This document shows positions 15,933 to 33,893 of a stretch of 51,319 nucleotides of DNA, piece by piece. The position numbers and the translations under genes are program-made. Source of the DNA: a virus. The stretch spans positions 1 to 51,319 of IMG/VR virus record IMGVR_UViG_3300042914_002164. One strand, given 5' to 3'. Positions within the stretch are counted from its first letter, which is position 1, and every line of letters starts with the position of its first letter. Below the pieces are notes generated by a model. That model was not told where the DNA came from, made no database searches, and worked only from the letters and a program-made list of their open reading frames with translations.

Positions 15933-16679
15933 TCAGGCTCCAAGCGCCGCGTTGGTCTTCGTCATGTCCGCGCAAGTGTACCGCTGGTAGCCCTTGAGGT
16001 CAGGCATCGGTACCTCCACGATCTCGGCGCCCGTTTCTCGGGCCACGGTCCGCGCCACGTCCATGAAGGACGTGGCCGTTCCGGTGCCGAGATTATACAC
16101 GCCGCTGACGTCCAAGTCAAAGAAGCGTCGATGGACGTCGATCACCTTCTCCACGGGCACAAAATCCCGCTTGATGCCCTCGCTGCCTTCGAAGACTTCG
16201 ATGTAGCCCAGCGCCGCAGCCTGTCGCCGAAAGCGCGTGTGCGGAGAGGCTTGGACCTTGTGCTCGTTCGGGCCGTAGACGTTGAAGTAACGGAAGAGTT
16301 GCACCGGCATCGGCCAATCGCGGTCGAGGACGTAAAGTTCCGTGATCCGCTTCGACATGGCGTAATCGTTTGGCGGGAAGACGGCAACGTCTTCGCGGAA
16401 CAGGGGTCCGGAACCGTATACCGCCGCCGTTGATGCAATCTGGATCGGAATCTGGCGATCAGCGCAGTCGTGCAGGAGTTCCTTGGTAAAGTTCACGTTC
16501 CGCTCGGCCAGAATCTTCCAGTCGGTAAACTGGGTGTCGGTGATCGCGCCGAGATGGATGACGCGCGAGATGCCGGTGAGATCGACCTTTCCGTCGCCCC
16601 ATTCGTAACCCCGCGCATCTGGGAACGCGCGCATCATGTTGCTGCCAATGAAGCCACGATGCCCGGTGATGAGGATCAT
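15933..16679 (-). CDS. hldD: ADP-heptose 6-epimerase-like (HldD) NAD-dependent epimerase
   Basis: This 248-residue short-chain dehydrogenase/epimerase has the Rossmann motif GHRGFIGS (6-13), catalytic ASTAAVYGSG (Ser83/Thr84) and Tyr106-x3-Lys110 (YAMSK), then RYFNVYGPNE and GIKRDFVPVEKV. These match HldD, which converts ADP-D-glycero- to ADP-L-glycero-D-manno-heptose for inner-core lipopolysaccharide. It is shorter than E. coli HldD (310 residues) by trimmed loops. The ATG at 16679 overlaps the upstream kinase stop (ATGA); a longer open frame running back through the kinase gene is a shadow. Specificity rests on the neighbouring heptose genes. Confidence 0.88.
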   Translation of the reverse strand: MILITGHRGFIGSNMMRAFPDARGYEWGDGKVDLTGISRVIHLGAITDTQFTDWKILAERNVNFTKELLHDCADRQIPIQIASTAAVYGSGPLFREDVAVFPPNDYAMSKRITELYVLDRDWPMPVQLFRYFNVYGPNEHKVQASPHTRFRRQAAALGYIEVFEGSEGIKRDFVPVEKVIDVHRRFFDLDVSGVYNLGTGTATSFMDVARTVARETGAEIVEVPMPDLKGYQRYTCADMTKTNAALGA

Positions 16680-17413
16680 AGCGTCGGCACCTCGTGCGAC
16701 TTCAGGGCATACGTCCCGATCTTCGTGCAGGTGATCGCGGCGCAGCGGTTGGCGAAGTTCATCGACGTCGGCACATTGCACCCGCTCGTCATGGCAAAGG
16801 CAAATGCCGCGAGGAACGTGTCGCCCGCGCCGCAGACGTCCACTACATCGACAGGGAAACCCGGTGCTACCGTCGTGCTGTTGTGCCGAGCCCCGTCTGC
16901 CCCGAGCGTCACCACGAGGTTTGTGGGCCGTGACAGGAGCGCCGCCTCCTCCGCTGCGTTGATCTTGAACCATGCAGGCCCCAGGCCGCCGAGGTGGCGC
17001 TTCTTCGTGTCGATGTAACAGTGCTTGAAGCGCGACAGTTGGGCGATGTCGTTGTCGGTCAGGAAACCCTTGTTGTAGTCCGAGACGATTACCGCGTCGA
17101 AGTCTTCGGGATTGTAGGTCCTGACATCCTTCCACACCTTGTCTGGCACGTTGTCGTCGTCCACGCGCAGCAGTTGCTGCCCGCTCTTCTCGTCGATGTA
17201 GCGCGTCTTGAACGACACGCCGTTCTTCGGCACCTCGGTTCGTACTTTTACACCGAAAGCTCGGAGGTTGGCGGCGACGTTCAGAGCCATGCCCACGCGG
17301 ATCTCGGTGCCGTGCATCGACAGCAGAGGGGCCGACGCCTCGGGGTTCAGCCGCTTGATGGTGCCGTACTTGTAGACGTCGTGGCACGCATCTCCGATAA
17401 CCAGAAACCTCAT
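16676..17413 (-). CDS. hldA: Heptose-7-phosphate kinase (HldE N-domain type, PfkB family)
   Basis: This 245-residue ribokinase-fold enzyme starts LVIGDACHDVYKYGTIKRLN, close to the first domain of HldE, and continues with NPEASAPLL and MALNVAANLRAFG. The PfkB signature DVCGAGDTF (192-200) carries the catalytic Asp198. It should phosphorylate D-glycero-D-manno-heptose 7-phosphate at C1. The domain is shortened from about 320 residues, and the usual GGAANVA reads GMALNVA. In enterobacteria this domain is fused to the adenylyltransferase. Here the two are separate genes with the cupin gene between them. Confidence 0.88.
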   Translation of the reverse strand: MRFLVIGDACHDVYKYGTIKRLNPEASAPLLSMHGTEIRVGMALNVAANLRAFGVKVRTEVPKNGVSFKTRYIDEKSGQQLLRVDDDNVPDKVWKDVRTYNPEDFDAVIVSDYNKGFLTDNDIAQLSRFKHCYIDTKKRHLGGLGPAWFKINAAEEAALLSRPTNLVVTLGADGARHNSTTVAPGFPVDVVDVCGAGDTFLAAFAFAMTSGCNVPTSMNFANRCAAITCTKIGTYALKSHEVPTL

Positions 17414-17754
17414 TGCCCGTCACCCGGCAACACGCGGTAGTTGTCGTTCGGGTCGTCGTGGGTCGAGACCTCGGACACCGTGCCCTCCTCCAGACAGATC
17501 AACTGGTGCGGCGAGAAGCGCGGGTTGTGCCATATGGCACCCGGCATCAGGCTCATCGTCTGGAGTTTCGCCGTCTTGGTCTCGATCCAGCGCACCTCGA
17601 AGGCGCCCGATCTCACCATCCATGTCTCGGTCTTCTTGGCGTGAAAGTGCATCGAGCACCGGCCGCCCTTCTTAAAGACCAAGTCCTTCCCACAGTACTC
17701 GTCCTCGTCCGACCAGATGAGCTCGTGCCCCCAGCCCTTCTCCACCACACGCAT
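17410..17754 (-). CDS. Single-domain cupin, sugar isomerase-like
   Basis: This 114-residue protein has cupin motif 1 [18 protein letters not shown] (two His and a Glu for metal) and motif 2 around [15 protein letters not shown]. The start [12 protein letters not shown] resembles type II mannose-6-phosphate isomerase-like cupins that travel with heptose and mannose nucleotide-sugar genes in phages and bacteria. The substrate is unknown; an epimerase, isomerase or binding role in the heptose pathway is inference. GGGAG lies 6 nt before the ATG. Its start lies 83 nt inside the upstream adenylyltransferase gene, an unusually long overlap. Confidence 0.82.
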
Positions 17755-18124
17755 TGACTACTCCCGTTGTTGATTTGCCGTCGACATAGGGGAGGATGAC
17801 GACCCGCGCGAGGTCGTGACCCACGACCTCCTGCTCCCTGTAGTCTCCCCCCTTCGTGATGATATCAGGCTTCACGCGCTTGATAAGGGCGTGCGGCGTG
17901 TCTTCGTCGAAAATGTAGACCGCGTCCACGCAGCGCAGGGCGAGCAGCACGCGCTTGCGGTCTTCCTGACAGTTGATCGGGCGGCGGTCGCCCTTCAACC
18001 GGCGCACCGACTCGTCGCTATTCAAGCCAACGACCAGATACTTTCCCAGCGCGCGGGACTGTTCAAGGTACTGGATGTGGCCGACGTGAAGGATGTCGAA
18101 GCAGCCGTTGGTGAAGACTAGCAT
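17672..18124 (-). CDS. hldC: Heptose 1-phosphate adenylyltransferase (HldE C-domain type)
   Basis: This 150-residue nucleotidyltransferase has [17 protein letters not shown] with the catalytic HxGH (13-16), [19 protein letters not shown] and DIITKGGDY, all as in the second domain of HldE/RfaE2. It should transfer AMP from ATP to heptose 1-phosphate. The ATG at 18124 overlaps the methyltransferase stop by 7 nt. After the family's usual end (GKSTTGVV) the frame continues for about 25 residues inside the cupin gene. That tail may be read-through filler, or the sequence may carry a small frame error near the end. Confidence 0.88.
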
Positions 18125-18690
18125 GTGCGCTGTATCGCGACCTGATACCCGGTCGGCGTCTCCAGAACTTTCAGGCGATTCCAGTTGCAGGCGATGAAGG
18201 CGTCCACCGCCTGCTTCGGGCTGTCGTGGATGCTGTCGCCGTAGCGCCAACTGACCGCGTCGTCGAAGAGCATGACACCGTCCTTGTTCAGCAGTTCAAA
18301 ACCAAGCGCCGCGTCGAGCAGCACGTCCTTCGCGAAGTGCGACCCGTCGACGTAGATCAGATCCGCCTTGACTCCTCGCAGGCGCAGGTCGATCAACCCG
18401 TCGAGCGACGTCTTCTCGATCAGCTCCACCTCGGGGAATGCAGCCGCATTGTCGAGGAACTGCCGCTTGGCCTCGTCCAGCACCGGCTGCCGGAGGTTCT
18501 CGGATGCCGTGAACGGGTCGATGACGTAGTAGGAGAACGGCCCGTTCTGACGCAGGAAGCTGGCGAAGTTGAAGGTCGTCTCGCCCTCGAACGCGCCGAT
18601 CTCGACCACCGTCGCCGGGATGCCGATCTCGTTGAGGATGCGGAGGATCGACTGCTTCGTGTGGTCGTGGAAGACGACGCTGAACCTCAT
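18118..18690 (-). CDS. Class I SAM-dependent methyltransferase
   Basis: This 190-residue protein has the SAM-binding glycine motif [14 protein letters not shown] (27-40), an acidic residue in YYVIDPF (Asp58), and [13 protein letters not shown] (Asp115, His118). It ends in [13 protein letters not shown], the pattern of Methyltransf_24-type enzymes found in glycan clusters. It probably methylates a sugar or glycoconjugate made by the neighbouring genes; the acceptor is unknown. Both ends overlap neighbours (ATGA at 18687, 7 nt at 18118). Confidence 0.85.
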
Positions 18691-19388
18691 CTGGCGAGAT
18701 CGTCGTTGCGCTGCGTCGTGCGGCCCTCAAGCGGTCTGCCGAGGATCGTCGTGTCCTTCATGTCTCCCTCCCACCCGTTGTAGGCGTAGATGCCCATCTG
18801 GTGGATCGGGAATACGTCAGCCCGCAGCATGATGTCCAGCGGCGCGCTGATGCCGTACTTGAGCACATGGGCCAGCATGTTCTTCGCGACAGCAGGGTCG
18901 ATGGCGTAGCTGTGAGCGCGGCAGATGAAGTGGTAGTTCGGGCCTTCAGAGGCATGAGGCGGCGTCGGCATGACAGCCCAGCCTTGGTTCACCTGCTCGT
19001 TGCTGCCGAGATAGCAGATCGAGTTGAAGACCGCGTGGTGCTGATATGGTTGAACCATGATCGCGTCATGCTCCAAGACGACCAGCGGCTGATCGTCGAG
19101 CACGCACTTCTGCCACAGGCTGATGTGGCTCAGAGCGCAGGCGACCTCCCCCCGCGTCAGGTAGTGATCCGTCACTTTCACCATCGCAGGCACACCGCCG
19201 TGATGCAGCGGAGGCTTGATCGGGTTCTGGATGCCGTCGTAGGCGTCCCAGTATGACCACTCCATGCCCGCCAGATCGCAGCTATCGGCACACCGCTGCG
19301 CCTTTTCTTCTGACTTGGCGTGGCCCGCTATGCGGATGATGTAGGCTCGGGAGACGGTCTGGTCGTAGCCGTAGTTGAGGGACTGCAA
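18687..19388 (-). CDS. Glycosyltransferase family 25 (LPS-type)
   Basis: This 233-residue protein shows the GT25 pattern: AYIIRI near the start, a conserved LTRGEVACALSHISLW (77-92), then PLVVLEHDA (101-109) with the acidic pair that binds metal and sugar nucleotide. GT25 enzymes add hexoses to lipooligosaccharide core or to protein. The gene starts at TTG, supported by AAAGGA 7 nt upstream and by the absence of a better ATG. It is the first gene of the heptose operon segment after an RCC1 fibre gene, so the fibre or host lipopolysaccharide are both possible acceptors. Confidence 0.85.
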   Translation of the reverse strand: MQSLNYGYDQTVSRAYIIRIAGHAKSEEKAQRCADSCDLAGMEWSYWDAYDGIQNPIKPPLHHGGVPAMVKVTDHYLTRGEVACALSHISLWQKCVLDDQPLVVLEHDAIMVQPYQHHAVFNSICYLGSNEQVNQGWAVMPTPPHASEGPNYHFICRAHSYAIDPAVAKNMLAHVLKYGISAPLDIMLRADVFPIHQMGIYAYNGWEGDMKDTTILGRPLEGRTTQRNDDLAR

Positions 19389-20633: not shown

Positions 20634-21059
20634 TTACAGAGCGTCAACAGCCTCGTGGGTAGTCGCCGCGGCGATCTCGTCCATGCGGGCCTCAAAGACA
20701 ACGCGAGCCGCATCCACGACAGCAGCGTCATACTGCGTCTCGGGATACTGGTCGGTTTCCTTGGCAACCTCTGCATCAACCACGACCTTAAACTCGGCCT
20801 TGGCCTGAGCACGAAGCCCATCCTTGCGCTCGTCAACCTCGATGTCGCGCTTGCCCCAAACGATCTGCGCAGGTTCTACGTCGATGTTGAAGTGGTGCGT
20901 GGTGTAAATCTCGCGGTTCGGGACGATGTCGGGGTGAACCTCGACAGCCTCACGCCAGCCGGGCTCAGACGCCAGCTTGTCAGCCGACGGCTTGTAGTCC
21001 CAAACGTCTTTGACTTGGCCGTTTTTGACGCGAATCCAGTAGCCCGTTTTCGTAGGCAT
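20634..21059 (-). CDS. Small hypothetical protein between fibre genes
   Basis: This 141-residue protein begins TKTGYWIRVKNGQVKDVWDY. It has a beta-rich N-terminal half and a charged helical C-terminal half (AQAKAEFKVVVDAEVAKETD). Its size and place between two fibre-module genes suit a fibre accessory or assembly chaperone, but no family is recognised. AAGGAG lies 8 nt before the ATG. The start lies 80 nt inside the upstream sulfotransferase/glycosyltransferase gene. Confidence 0.65.
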   Translation of the reverse strand: MPTKTGYWIRVKNGQVKDVWDYKPSADKLASEPGWREAVEVHPDIVPNREIYTTHHFNIDVEPAQIVWGKRDIEVDERKDGLRAQAKAEFKVVVDAEVAKETDQYPETQYDAAVVDAARVVFEARMDEIAAATTHEAVDAL

Positions 21060-22800
21060 GGAGCAACTCCTTTTTCAATTCTCCAAAGACCGTCACCCAG
21101 TCCCCGTGTCCAGTTTGACGGAACAGCCGCACGCTGTCGTACCACTCCGTCGTGTTCCCCGGCTTTGCCCAAAGATAATACGGAAGCACGGGCGTGACAA
21201 TCCATGTCGGTATACCCATTGCCGCCGACATGTGGGAAACTGATGTGCAAGACGATACCACAAGATCGCACGAAGCGATAGCCTGCCGGGTGTCTTCCCA
21301 GTGCGCCAAAGGCAGCTCCCTGACCCACGCGGGCCTGTGCTCCGCGCCCTCGTCGCGCTGCAGGCTGACATATTCAACATCCAGCCCCTTGACCGCGTTG
21401 AACAGATACTGCGCCGGGAACAGCCGATGCTGCTGATGCTCAAACTCGGGGTTGCCCTGCCACCGCAGGCCGATCCGAAACTTGTCGCCCTTAGCTACAT
21501 CGGGCTTCGGGATGTAGGCCGACCCGTCAATGTGCTTGTACTGCCAGCCCAGCGGAATGCTGGCCGTCATGCTCGGCACCCAGAAGTCATGCACCACGCC
21601 GAAGGCAGCCTCGTGCTGGATGACCATGTCCACGCCATCAACCTTGCGCATGGTCATCGCCAGCGCGCCGGAGCAGGCCACGATGACCTGATTGCCGCGC
21701 GCCTTCAGCTCGCGGGCATAGCGGACGCCATGTATTTGATCGCCGAGGCCAGCCTCCAAGTTCAACAGGATCGTGCCCGTCGATACCCCATCCCAAAGCG
21801 GCGTCGGCACTTTGGGTGCCTCGTTGCCGAAAACCTTCTCAATCCGGCCCCTGTCCAGCAGCTTCATGCCGTCCAGCAGGTGGCCCTTGCGCATCTCGTA
21901 CCAGCCGCGATTGAAGGCTGCGCGATGGTTCTTCGGCTCCTTGATCGCCAGTTCCTGAGCGATCTCCTCGCCGCGCTTGAAGTCGCCGATGATCCCGGCG
22001 GCCAACTGCATATCAAGCGGGTGGATCATCTCGGTCGTCAGCGGCTTCTCGCGCCAGAAGCAGGGCTGCACGAAGTTCTGGCGCATGTGCTGCAGCACGT
22101 CGGCGGAGTCATCATTGTGACGCTTGGCCAGCTTCGGTGCCACCGTGTGCAGCCCCGGCACCTGCCAGATTTCCTCGTCGCGCTCCTTGGGGGCGTGCTC
22201 GTCAAGGTGGTTGAAGTCGTAGTCGAAGTCGCTGATCTCAAGAAACTCGTGGATGCGGGCCAGCTGCCTCTTGGGGTCGGCGATCAGGTCTTCGTACTCG
22301 ACAAAGAGGAAGCAGGACTGGTCGTACTGAAAGCCCGTGAGAAGCACCTGATAAGACTTCTTGAGGTGGTCGATCAGGTCACTGTTGCGAAGAAAATCCT
22401 CAACGTCATTGGGCTTCGCCACGCGCACGAAGGATGCCGCGCAGTCGTCGATGTTGCGAACGGTGGCGATGATCTTCGGCTTTCGGCCAAGAAGTTCGTG
22501 CAGCACGCGCAGGCTTGAGACTTCGGCCCAGTTCCGCGCCTTGTCGATCACGACAGGCTTTTCCACCTTGGCGTACTTGGCATCCATGATGCCGCGCAAG
22601 ACGGCCTTGATCTGGTCTTCGTCCGGTGCCGCCTGCTCCGCTGAGCTTCCCTGCCACGCCTTGAAGGTGTTGAACATCACCTCGCCCATGCCGCTGGTGG
22701 GGCTGGCGTGAAGGTCGGGATGCTGGTTCAAGAGCGCGGCAAGGACGGTGCTGCCCGAGCGGGGAAGGCCTGCGAGGAAGTGGAAGGTTTTCTGGAGCAT
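20980..22800 (-). CDS. Sulfotransferase / TPR-glycosyltransferase fusion protein
   Basis: This 606-residue protein joins two enzyme types. The N-terminal part (about 1-250) is a PAPS-dependent sulfotransferase: 5'-phosphosulfate loop LPRSGSTVLAALLNQHP (12-28) and 3'-phosphate motif VRNIDDCAASF (114-124). Residues of about 262-335 form a TPR-like helical linker (FKRGEEIAQELAIKEPKNHR). The C-terminal part (about 340-590) matches GT9-fold transferases that follow TPR repeats: LLNLEAGLGDQIHGVRYA, IGLRWQGNPEFEHQQHR, DLVVSSCTSVSHMSAAMG. GT9 includes the heptosyltransferases, which fits the ADP-heptose genes downstream. The start overlaps the RCC1 protein 2 stop (TAATG); the end overlaps the next gene by 80 nt. 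Confidence 0.85.
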   Translation of the reverse strand: MLQKTFHFLAGLPRSGSTVLAALLNQHPDLHASPTSGMGEVMFNTFKAWQGSSAEQAAPDEDQIKAVLRGIMDAKYAKVEKPVVIDKARNWAEVSSLRVLHELLGRKPKIIATVRNIDDCAASFVRVAKPNDVEDFLRNSDLIDHLKKSYQVLLTGFQYDQSCFLFVEYEDLIADPKRQLARIHEFLEISDFDYDFNHLDEHAPKERDEEIWQVPGLHTVAPKLAKRHNDDSADVLQHMRQNFVQPCFWREKPLTTEMIHPLDMQLAAGIIGDFKRGEEIAQELAIKEPKNHRAAFNRGWYEMRKGHLLDGMKLLDRGRIEKVFGNEAPKVPTPLWDGVSTGTILLNLEAGLGDQIHGVRYARELKARGNQVIVACSGALAMTMRKVDGVDMVIQHEAAFGVVHDFWVPSMTASIPLGWQYKHIDGSAYIPKPDVAKGDKFRIGLRWQGNPEFEHQQHRLFPAQYLFNAVKGLDVEYVSLQRDEGAEHRPAWVRELPLAHWEDTRQAIASCDLVVSSCTSVSHMSAAMGIPTWIVTPVLPYYLWAKPGNTTEWYDSVRLFRQTGHGDWVTVFGELKKELLHAYENGLLDSRQKRPSQRRLGLQAVG

Positions 22801-23957
22801 TAGTTGGATGAACCTTGGAAGATGGCAGTTGTAAACCCATTACCGCCAGAAACCTGAGACCAAGCAGTAAGAGCGCCGATCTGAACGGGGCTGGAGCGAA
22901 AAACAACGTTGTTGTCGCCAAGTCCGCCCGCAAAGTTGTTGCCCCACGCCCACAAAGTCCCGTCTGCCTTAATAGCAGAACTTAGGTTATCTCCTGTGCC
23001 CAGCTTTATCGACCAGTTTGTAAGAGCGCCAACCTGAACGGGGCTGGAACGGTCAATAGTATTGCCCTGACCAAGCTGGCCGTTGAAGTTACGACCCCAA
23101 GACCACAAGGTGCCATCCGTCTTTAAGGCGATAACATGACTGGCTCCTGTTGATGGCTTTAGCCAGTTTGTAAGAGCGCCAACCTGAGCAGGGCTGGAGA
23201 GCTCAATGATATTGCCACGACCAAGTTGACCGTTGGAGTTACGACCCCAAGACCACAAGGTGCCATCTGTTTTGACCGCTATGCAGAACGTATCTGAGGC
23301 TGTTGGATGTAAAGATACTTGCGCCCAGTCTGTTAATGCTCCTACTTGAATCGGACTTGATCTGCTTGCGGTGGTACCGTCACCCAAACCTCCATTGGAG
23401 TTTGAGCCCCAAGTCCAAAGAGTGCCATCGGTTTTGATGGAAGCGGAAGAGTATACACTCGCCGAAATCTGTGCCCAGTTGGTAAGAGCGCCGACTTGCA
23501 CTGGGCTGGATTTGTAAATGGTCGTATTGTCGCCTATAGAGCCCCGAGAATTATTCCCCCATGACCAAAGCGTTCCATCAGTTTTAATAGCCAGGCCATG
23601 AACACCACCAGCTTGGATGTCTCCCCAAGTGTTCAATGATCCTATTTGTACTGGGCTAGAGCTGTTTACAGTGGTGCTGTTGCCAAGTTGACCGCTAGAG
23701 TTTAGCCCCCAACCGTAAGCATACCCGTCGTTAGACAAGGCAAGACTAAAATTGCGACCTGCAGAGACCTTAGACCATGTCGTTAAACTTCCGACTTGAA
23801 CTGGGCTGGAACGCCGCTCTACGTCTCCAAAGCCAAGTTGCCCGTTAACATTATACCCCCACGCATACAGCTCGCCCGTCGGCAACCCCGTCCACGTCCC
23901 TGCGGCCACGGCCTGCAGTTGCTCCATCAAGCCCCATTTTGCGGAGAAATTCGGCAT
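22800..23957 (-). CDS. RCC1-repeat seven-bladed propeller protein 2
   Basis: This 385-residue protein is almost wholly RCC1 repeats after a short N-terminus (FSAKWGLMEQLQAVAAG). Seven blade turns are visible (GYNVNGQLG, GLNSSGQLG, GNNSRGSIG, GSNSNGGLG, GRNSNGQLG, GRNFNGQLG, GNNFAGGLG), again one complete propeller. The gene reads more AT-rich than the capsid genes, which may mean recent acquisition. The start follows GGAG and the upstream stop; the end overlaps the sulfotransferase fusion by TAATG, coupling their translation. Probably a surface-exposed fibre or receptor-binding protein. Confidence 0.83.
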   Translation of the reverse strand: MPNFSAKWGLMEQLQAVAAGTWTGLPTGELYAWGYNVNGQLGFGDVERRSSPVQVGSLTTWSKVSAGRNFSLALSNDGYAYGWGLNSSGQLGNSTTVNSSSPVQIGSLNTWGDIQAGGVHGLAIKTDGTLWSWGNNSRGSIGDNTTIYKSSPVQVGALTNWAQISASVYSSASIKTDGTLWTWGSNSNGGLGDGTTASRSSPIQVGALTDWAQVSLHPTASDTFCIAVKTDGTLWSWGRNSNGQLGRGNIIELSSPAQVGALTNWLKPSTGASHVIALKTDGTLWSWGRNFNGQLGQGNTIDRSSPVQVGALTNWSIKLGTGDNLSSAIKADGTLWAWGNNFAGGLGDNNVVFRSSPVQIGALTAWSQVSGGNGFTTAIFQGSSN

Positions 23958-33056: not shown

Positions 33057-33893
33057 CTAGACGTACTCAAAACGCCACCCCTTATATGGCCCCTTTGTCA
33101 GTGGTTTCCCGCTTCTAACTGACCGCAGTATCGTCGGCAAAAAGATCCCCAACTGTTCCTTGATCGCCGTCGTCCTCGGGTACACTGTGACCTCACCTTC
33201 CGGTGAAATCATCCTGACCGCCTGCCCCATCTTCGACTTCGACTCCTCGCTGTGGCTCCTGCCCGCCCAGTGCTGATTGCCCATCTGAGCCTCAGACAGC
33301 TTTCTCCGGTGCTCCTCAGAACGAACATGGCCCTTCGCGTTCTGGTTCCCCTTCAAGGAGGCAGACATTTTGGCTCTCGTTTCCTCGGATGGGATGAACT
33401 TACCCCCACGGCCCTCGGATAGCGCAGCGTGGACCTTGGCCTTGATCTTCTCTATCGTCTCGGGGCTGTGTTTACGGCCCGTGCGCGGGTCGGAGGTTTT
33501 CCACTGCTCAAGGGTAGCTTCGCGAAGCATTTGCTTTTGATCGTCAGTCAAACGCTTGCCAAAGCTTGGATGTTTTTCTGAAGGAACTCCGCGCCACGGC
33601 GCGCCAGATCTGTACCCGTGATTGTAGCAGTGCTCTTTTCCAACATGCTGCGACAGCCACCGGTCCTCCGCAGCCTGAAGTTCCGTCACGTCCACGACGT
33701 GCTCAATCACTTTAAACTCAAACGACGCTTCTCCATACTTGTTCCACGCCGCTTGAAGATGAGCGCAATGATGAGTGCCTGCTCGCAGTTTAGTGCGATG
33801 TGTTTTCCAGCGAACATACCGCTGAACAGTACTACCAACGTAGAATTTTCCGTTCAGCGTGTTTTTGATCCAGTAGATAACAGGTTCTTTCAT
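33057..33893 (-). CDS. GIY-YIG homing endonuclease with NUMOD3 repeats
   Basis: This 278-residue free-standing homing endonuclease is of the Seg/intron type. The N-terminal catalytic domain reads VIYWIKNTLNGKFYVGST (the GIY-YIG pair as IYW/FYVG), then RYVRWKTHRTKL with the catalytic Arg and the downstream Glu in AAEDRWL. The middle holds NUMOD3-type DNA-binding repeats (HPSFGKRLTDDQKQMLREA, RTGRKHSPETIEKIK, GHVRSEEHRRKLSEAQMG, GRSHSEESKSKMGQA). The C-terminal part looks like a NUMOD1/HTH module (TTAIKEQLGIFLPTILRSV). It has its own promoter and terminator and lies directly after the capsid gene. GGAGG precedes the ATG. Confidence 0.93.
   Translation of the reverse strand: MKEPVIYWIKNTLNGKFYVGSTVQRYVRWKTHRTKLRAGTHHCAHLQAAWNKYGEASFEFKVIEHVVDVTELQAAEDRWLSQHVGKEHCYNHGYRSGAPWRGVPSEKHPSFGKRLTDDQKQMLREATLEQWKTSDPRTGRKHSPETIEKIKAKVHAALSEGRGGKFIPSEETRAKMSASLKGNQNAKGHVRSEEHRRKLSEAQMGNQHWAGRSHSEESKSKMGQAVRMISPEGEVTVYPRTTAIKEQLGIFLPTILRSVRSGKPLTKGPYKGWRFEYV

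Follow-up and report, generated by a model that had tools for sequence, protein, structure and literature searches.

Within the window, by which we mean the whole 51,319-nucleotide stretch of viral DNA analysed here, a single gene joins a PAPS-type sulfotransferase to a GT-B glycosyltransferase, and a widespread group of aquatic phages carries the same fusion, in which known enzyme families are arranged in a new way. At a probability of roughly one half, we consider its product to be a bifunctional enzyme that acts in the cytoplasm as part of a virion-glycoprotein cassette and would build a sulfated glycan on an RCC1 propeller protein. The features of the fusion and its neighbourhood are collected in Table 1.

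The fusion frame, on the minus strand, runs for 606 codons from an ATG start, with no internal stops. The preliminary description, made from the sequence alone, had proposed a single chain with a PAPS-type sulfotransferase at its beginning and a glycosyltransferase at its end, and this is borne out by Pfam for the N-terminal half and by fold matches for both halves. The motifs it had quoted, LPRSGST, VRNIDDCAASF and GLGDQIHGVRYA, are found at residues 12-18, 114-124 and 351-362, respectively. Residues 8-190 match Pfam Sulfotransfer_3 (PF13469) at 1.7e-19 (71.4 bits against a cut-off of 27) and, also above cut-off, Sulfotransfer_1 at 6e-15, and the unannotated family phrog_27463 covers residues 3-253 (1.4e-51). 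The same PF13469/phrog_27463 domain family is represented by sulfotransferases of the phages S-SKS1, S-SCSM1 and S-SRM01; these are annotated as such and are single-domain proteins of about 260-280 aa, whereas the window protein is fused.

The AlphaFold2 model of the fusion, built from 39 sequences, has a mean pLDDT of 86.9 and a pTM of 0.72. Its best PDB matches by Foldseek are the human tyrosylprotein sulfotransferases (TPST) 3ap3/3ap1 (E about 1e-9), and other sulfotransferases, including 3-OST and NDST, are also matched. TPST1 and TPST2 are the closest solved relatives in both sequence and fold, and their P-loop, R/S motif and DK lysine align with the fusion. The identity, however, is about 23%, no acidic tyrosine substrate was seen, and in the alignment to TPST the catalytic glutamate (GEET motif) has no evident equivalent in the sulfotransferase half; SPTSG of the fusion aligns with the GEET region, and T35/S36 are invariant. 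Among 39 diverse copies of the fusion, RSGST (R14-T18) is retained in all, and the proline of PRSGST and K87 in 38 each. A hydropathy scan revealed no membrane segment in the protein, which fits a cytoplasmic step at the time of assembly and would equally fit work on the lipopolysaccharide core.

By Foldseek, the C-terminal half matches SPINDLY (SPY, 8dti; 5e-6) and WaaC (2h1h; 1.1e-4, TM-score 0.54 by target), and the viral structure models that match the fusion are annotated as sulfotransferase, TPR protein, GT family 9 and Aah/TibC. No match to this half was obtained with the Pfam and NCBIfam glycosyltransferase models (Pfam GT9 and GT41 included), nor by searching its profile against PDB sequences. 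Relatives retrieved by tblastn occur in the phages BUCT-ZZ01 (37.5%), AG-345-E08 and S-SRM01 ("tetratricopeptide repeat protein"), and also among plasmid-borne bacterial proteins of the "tetratricopeptide repeat-containing glycosyltransferase family". The earlier assignment of this half to the TPR-linked, GT9-like kind holds as regards the GT-B fold and the TPR/GT9-type phage relatives, but the TPR was not detected by Pfam; the corresponding part of the fusion model is a short helical stretch (residues about 261-321). WaaC of GT9 and the TPR-linked GT9/GT41-like enzymes share with it the GT-B fold and motifs of the GD..(L/I)H and S-T..H types, and differ in that the C-terminal half matches neither Pfam GT9 nor GT41 and has a sulfotransferase fused on. 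D354 is invariant in the 39 copies and H357 is retained in 37; by analogy to D110 of TibC (PMC4358343), and also to WaaC, D354 may serve as the catalytic base. A model of this half alone, predicted without an alignment, reached a pLDDT of 41 and was left out of the fold evidence.

The bacterial autotransporter heptosyltransferases (BAHT) TibC and Aah would be alike in their mode of working, as a GT-B enzyme near ADP-heptose genes together with a repetitive surface protein (PMC4358343), and membership of the C-terminal half in this family was considered because ADP-heptose genes and repeats lie nearby. It was rejected, since the four-cysteine iron finger of the family (PMC4358343) is lacking (there are only three cysteines, C376, C511 and C518, none within CxxC), as are its beta-barrel N-domain and any family match.

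Table 1. Features of the fusion gene, its motifs and neighbouring genes in the window (aa, amino acids)
Feature	Position	Strand	Basis
HldD-like nucleotide-sugar epimerase	15933..16676	-	TIGR02197 2e-50 (below cut-off); Pfam Epimerase 5.9e-20
HldE-type heptose kinase-like PfkB protein	16676..17413	-	TIGR02198 9.5e-34 (below cut-off); Pfam PfkB 2.3e-16
Small cupin, possibly sugar isomerase/epimerase	17410..17754	-	Weak sub-cut-off Pfam cupin; phrog_7851 1.6e-35
HldE-type heptose-1-phosphate adenylyltransferase-like protein	17672..18121	-	TIGR02199 1.1e-51, 174.5 bits (below cut-off of 181.5)
Class I methyltransferase (Methyltransf_24)	18118..18690	-	Pfam 2.3e-17
GT25-like glycosyltransferase	18687..19388	-	Pfam 3e-14; kept downstream in many relatives
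Third RCC1 propeller protein, 409 aa	19392..20621	-	Pfam RCC1 8.6e-74; phrog_4219 8.5e-45
Conserved partner, 141 aa, 80-base overlap with fusion 3' end	20634..21059	-	GGAG before ATG
Sulfotransferase-glycosyltransferase fusion, 606 aa	20980..22800	-	Open frame, homologues, AlphaFold2 model
GT-B domain with short helical (TPR-like) lead-in, residues 262-580	21061..22017	-	Fold, stand-alone homologues
SCTSVSH, putative donor-side motif (T519, S520, H523)	21232..21252	-	SCTS and H523 invariant in 39/39
GLGDQIH, candidate catalytic-base motif (D354)	21730..21750	-	Conservation
Sulfotransferase domain, residues 3-253	22042..22794	-	Pfam, phrog_27463, TPST2 fold match (E 1e-9)
R115...S123, expected 3'-phosphate-binding motif	22432..22458	-	R115 and S123 invariant in 39/39
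PRSGST, expected 5'-phosphosulfate-binding loop, residues 13-18	22747..22764	-	Conservation
RCC1 propeller protein, 385 aa, 1-base overlap with fusion start	22800..23957	-	Pfam RCC1 3.6e-72
Second RCC1 propeller protein, 466 aa	23958..25358	-	RCC1-type repeats, 7 SSP motifs; homologous region in relatives

The two domains occur together in 90 viral ORFs, every one of them in the order sulfotransferase-glycosyltransferase, and full-length copies (72 such ORFs were taken from the viral-contig scans), which come from independent metagenomes, show 41-99% identity. A sequencing or assembly fusion of separate genes is ruled out by these 90 ORFs and by the range of identity among the full-length copies. 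Pairwise dN/dS between the window fusion and six relatives is 0.03-0.26 in both halves, a seventh comparison being saturated, and both halves are under purifying selection. The preliminary description had named the lack of a PAPS pocket, the lack of a GT-B fold or an origin from separate genes as grounds for abandoning it; as far as sequence and fold prediction can tell, it withstands all three. One copy (L022:6438-8186) has a sulfotransferase half with K87E, R89I and a deletion of about 20 residues, which, from these changes, is possibly dead. It appears to be a recombinant, with a glycosyltransferase half near-identical to that of other phages and a diverged sulfotransferase half.

The TAATG coupling of the fusion to the RCC1 ORF upstream, also part of the preliminary description, is present in the window as a 1-base overlap at the junction AACTAATGCTC. 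The association extends to the relatives: in the 83 fused loci whose upstream sequence extends for 1.5 kb or more, an RCC1 gene lies directly upstream in 70, and directly upstream or no more than 1.5 kb downstream in 79. By comparison, of 60 loci without either fusion domain, selected solely because they have an APS-kinase-like gene, 3 have RCC1 (nominal Fisher p 4e-31, for loci that are related and a comparison set that is not a random background). These linkage counts cover related sequences, and the contigs are fragments, so that absences carry little weight.

RCC1 proteins, annotated phrog_4219, were found by mass spectrometry in the virion of E. coli phage W70 (PMC11370258), and one RCC1 protein was found by the same means in that of GAP32 (PMC5259590). 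The RCC1 proteins of the window also match phrog_4219, and by analogy with W70 and GAP32 the RCC1 protein of the window is probably a virion or fibre component. Its repeats display recurrent (Y)(R/K)SSPVQ loops. The fusion is located among late structural genes: upstream of it lie those for terminase, portal and head protein, and downstream one for a virion structural protein. The 141-aa partner is kept after the fusion in most relatives; it yielded no family match in profile searches, and that it acts as a fibre chaperone is a guess.

Four consecutive ORFs of the window (15933-18121, minus strand) resemble the final steps of ADP-heptose synthesis. Neither GmhA nor GmhB was found in the window, nor was an APS kinase, so the host must contribute to the supply of donors. 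ADP-heptose is the likely product of the Hld-like genes, with the early steps supplied by the host. Among the relatives, an APS-kinase-like gene (PF01583 above cut-off) is present in 24 of 49 fusion contigs, on the same strand and 0-4.2 kb downstream of the fusion where the distance was measured; in L033, L034 and L097 it directly overlaps the fusion end. The best PDB match of its profile is the APS kinase 2yvu (1.9e-9), and the six members scanned score only 21-36 bits with the NCBIfam equivalog model TIGR00455, far below its cut-off of 138.7. When the linkage was examined from the kinase side, 18 of 80 APS-kinase-like loci showed a sulfotransferase domain of the fusion's family within about 8 kb, including about ten in which a stand-alone sulfotransferase gene ends at the kinase start. 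Neither fusion domain occurs in 60 of the 80, so the kinase has other contexts too. The APS-kinase-like part has hundreds of relatives in viral contigs, and in several loci (L034:3047-3799, L017:11969-12793 and others) it is fused to a small NMN-adenylyltransferase-like domain.

A heptose adenylyltransferase homologue was identified in 16 of 33 fusion contigs (three of the 16 with weaker matches only), and two contigs (L060 and L064) combine the APS-kinase-like gene with the heptose set. About half of the fusion contigs are without heptose genes, and UDP-galactopyranose mutase is present in L025 and L063; the sugar donor may therefore differ, and the sugar added probably varies among the fusion phages.

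The two enzymes are also encountered apart and in other combinations. In the cultured cyanophage S-SRM01 they are separate genes, each immediately after an RCC1 gene (long tail fibre distal subunit, RCC1, hypothetical, RCC1, TPR-GT and, further along, RCC1, sulfotransferase). Its gp334-gp345 thus provide the same components as the window beside a long tail fibre, but its glycosyltransferase is only a remote relative. The order in BUCT-ZZ01 is tail fibre, hypothetical, RCC1 and a glycosyltransferase with a C-terminal methyltransferase-like domain (L187:6063-7778); the same combination is found in L025:3492-5228, right after an RCC1 gene, and Pfam support for the methyltransferase-like domain of both is weak. 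A stand-alone glycosyltransferase of 321 aa is present in L035-L037, directly after RCC1 in L035. Together with the altered sulfotransferase half of L022, this suggests that sulfation is dispensable in some phages.

The reverse order, glycosyltransferase-sulfotransferase, was observed in L193:5944-7899 and L195:4255-6222, which are CPR MAG contigs and may be viral or cellular. On a Patescibacteria MAG contig, likewise viral or cellular, one chain of about 1340 aa (L191:1673-5692) directly follows an RCC1 ORF and is composed of sulfotransferase, GT-B, methyltransferase and GT41 (OGT-type) domains; GT41 was absent from the 22 viral contig records examined. In quick trees with long branches, the glycosyltransferase-sulfotransferase pair forms a separate clade and nearly all copies of the opposite order cluster together, which is consistent with at least two events in which the domains were joined.

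In the proposed mechanism, the C-terminal GT-B domain would transfer a sugar from a nucleotide donor, in the window phage probably an ADP-heptose-like sugar; genes for its last steps appear to lie about 3 to 5 kb downstream. Sulfate would be moved from PAPS by the N-terminal domain, most likely onto the sugar so added. The most likely acceptor would be the neighbouring RCC1 propeller protein, modified during particle assembly, and the phage may benefit through adsorption or shielding. From the RCC1 proteins of the W70 and GAP32 virions and the shared phrog_4219, we infer that an RCC1 protein of the virion receives a sulfated sugar from the fusion; we likewise infer both activities, the identity of the sugar, the RCC1 protein as acceptor and the benefit. 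Of the interpretation offered in the preliminary description, the fusion itself, the two predicted folds and the coupling to RCC1 stand and are conserved well beyond this contig. That description had not mentioned the nearby genes of ADP-heptose type, the link to APS kinase in relatives, the separate genes of the cultured S-SRM01 or the other fusions of the glycosyltransferase domain. Its sulfated glycan on a fibre is the favoured reading, in view of the RCC1 adjacency, the late structural location, the donor genes of the relatives and virion mass spectrometry in other phages. More tentatively, and at somewhat less than even odds, many aquatic phages may use a dedicated cassette (RCC1, fusion and donor enzymes) to turn a fibre or decoration protein of their own virions into a sulfated glycoprotein.

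The main rival, to which we give a modest probability, is that the fusion and the neighbouring GT25 and heptose genes serve to remodel the lipopolysaccharide or capsule of the host late in infection, perhaps to keep progeny from adsorbing again. The GT25 and Hld-type genes are indeed of the LPS-core type, and WaaC is among the fold neighbours of the C-terminal half; against this, RCC1 adjoins the fusion in 79 of 83 loci, and the cassette is located among late structural genes and, in S-SRM01 and BUCT-ZZ01, after tail-fibre genes. The L191 chain, with its additional GT41 domain, also speaks against this rival, GT41 being a family known for protein O-glycosylation. It is rather improbable that sulfate and sugar are placed on different sites of one protein without a sulfated sugar being formed, as would be the case if, in the RCC1 repeats, tyrosine were sulfated and Ser/Thr carried the sugar. 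Protein-tyrosine sulfotransferases are the nearest solved relatives of the N-terminal half, and the (Y)(R/K)SSPVQ loops recur in the RCC1 repeats; however, the acidic-flanked tyrosine targeted by TPST is not evident in these repeats, the similarity to TPST is remote, and the fold is shared by carbohydrate sulfotransferases (3-OST and NDST are also matched).

We regard as still less probable that one half is vestigial or non-catalytic, e.g., a sulfotransferase serving only for binding. The altered L022 copy and the lack of this half in L035-L037 would agree with such a loss, yet the PAPS motifs are near-invariant, dN/dS is low in both halves and sulfate-activation-like genes are linked to the fusion. 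Hypermodification of phage DNA, with sugar and sulfate put on modified bases, seems very improbable. Base-modification systems with phage glycosyltransferases and sulfotransferases have been reported as predictions, and Iyer et al. 2013 (as cited in PMC10829341) proposed, on computational grounds, that sugar and sulfate are put on modified bases in some phages. The window, however, has no match to PF13640, the one 2OG-oxygenase family searched, and the cassette is found next to RCC1 genes, within the structural region and away from the replication genes.

What sulfotransferases do in phages has been called unclear (PMC10580990); they are usually classed among the auxiliary metabolic genes of the sulfur cycle (PMC13079714), and other literature assigns them to sulfur metabolism or to nucleotide/protein modification. 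The company of the sulfotransferase here (RCC1 proteins of the virion type, a glycosyltransferase and genes for donor synthesis) instead speaks for a role in modifying the phage's own particle. The remark of the preliminary description that no phage enzyme with this pair is known to be described agrees with our survey of the open-licence literature, in which we found no account of the fusion and no description of its RCC1 linkage. If the favoured reading of a sulfated glycan on the virion is true, these phages would encode a protein sulfo-glycosylation system, in which fusions arose more than once and some variants methylate instead. Such a cassette would also help to explain the presence of heptose, APS-kinase-like and galactofuranose genes in aquatic phages, as well as what RCC1 proteins may be doing in virions.

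Elsewhere in the window, a homing-endonuclease-like ORF (33057-33893, minus strand; phrog_314) adjoins the major-head-protein gene.
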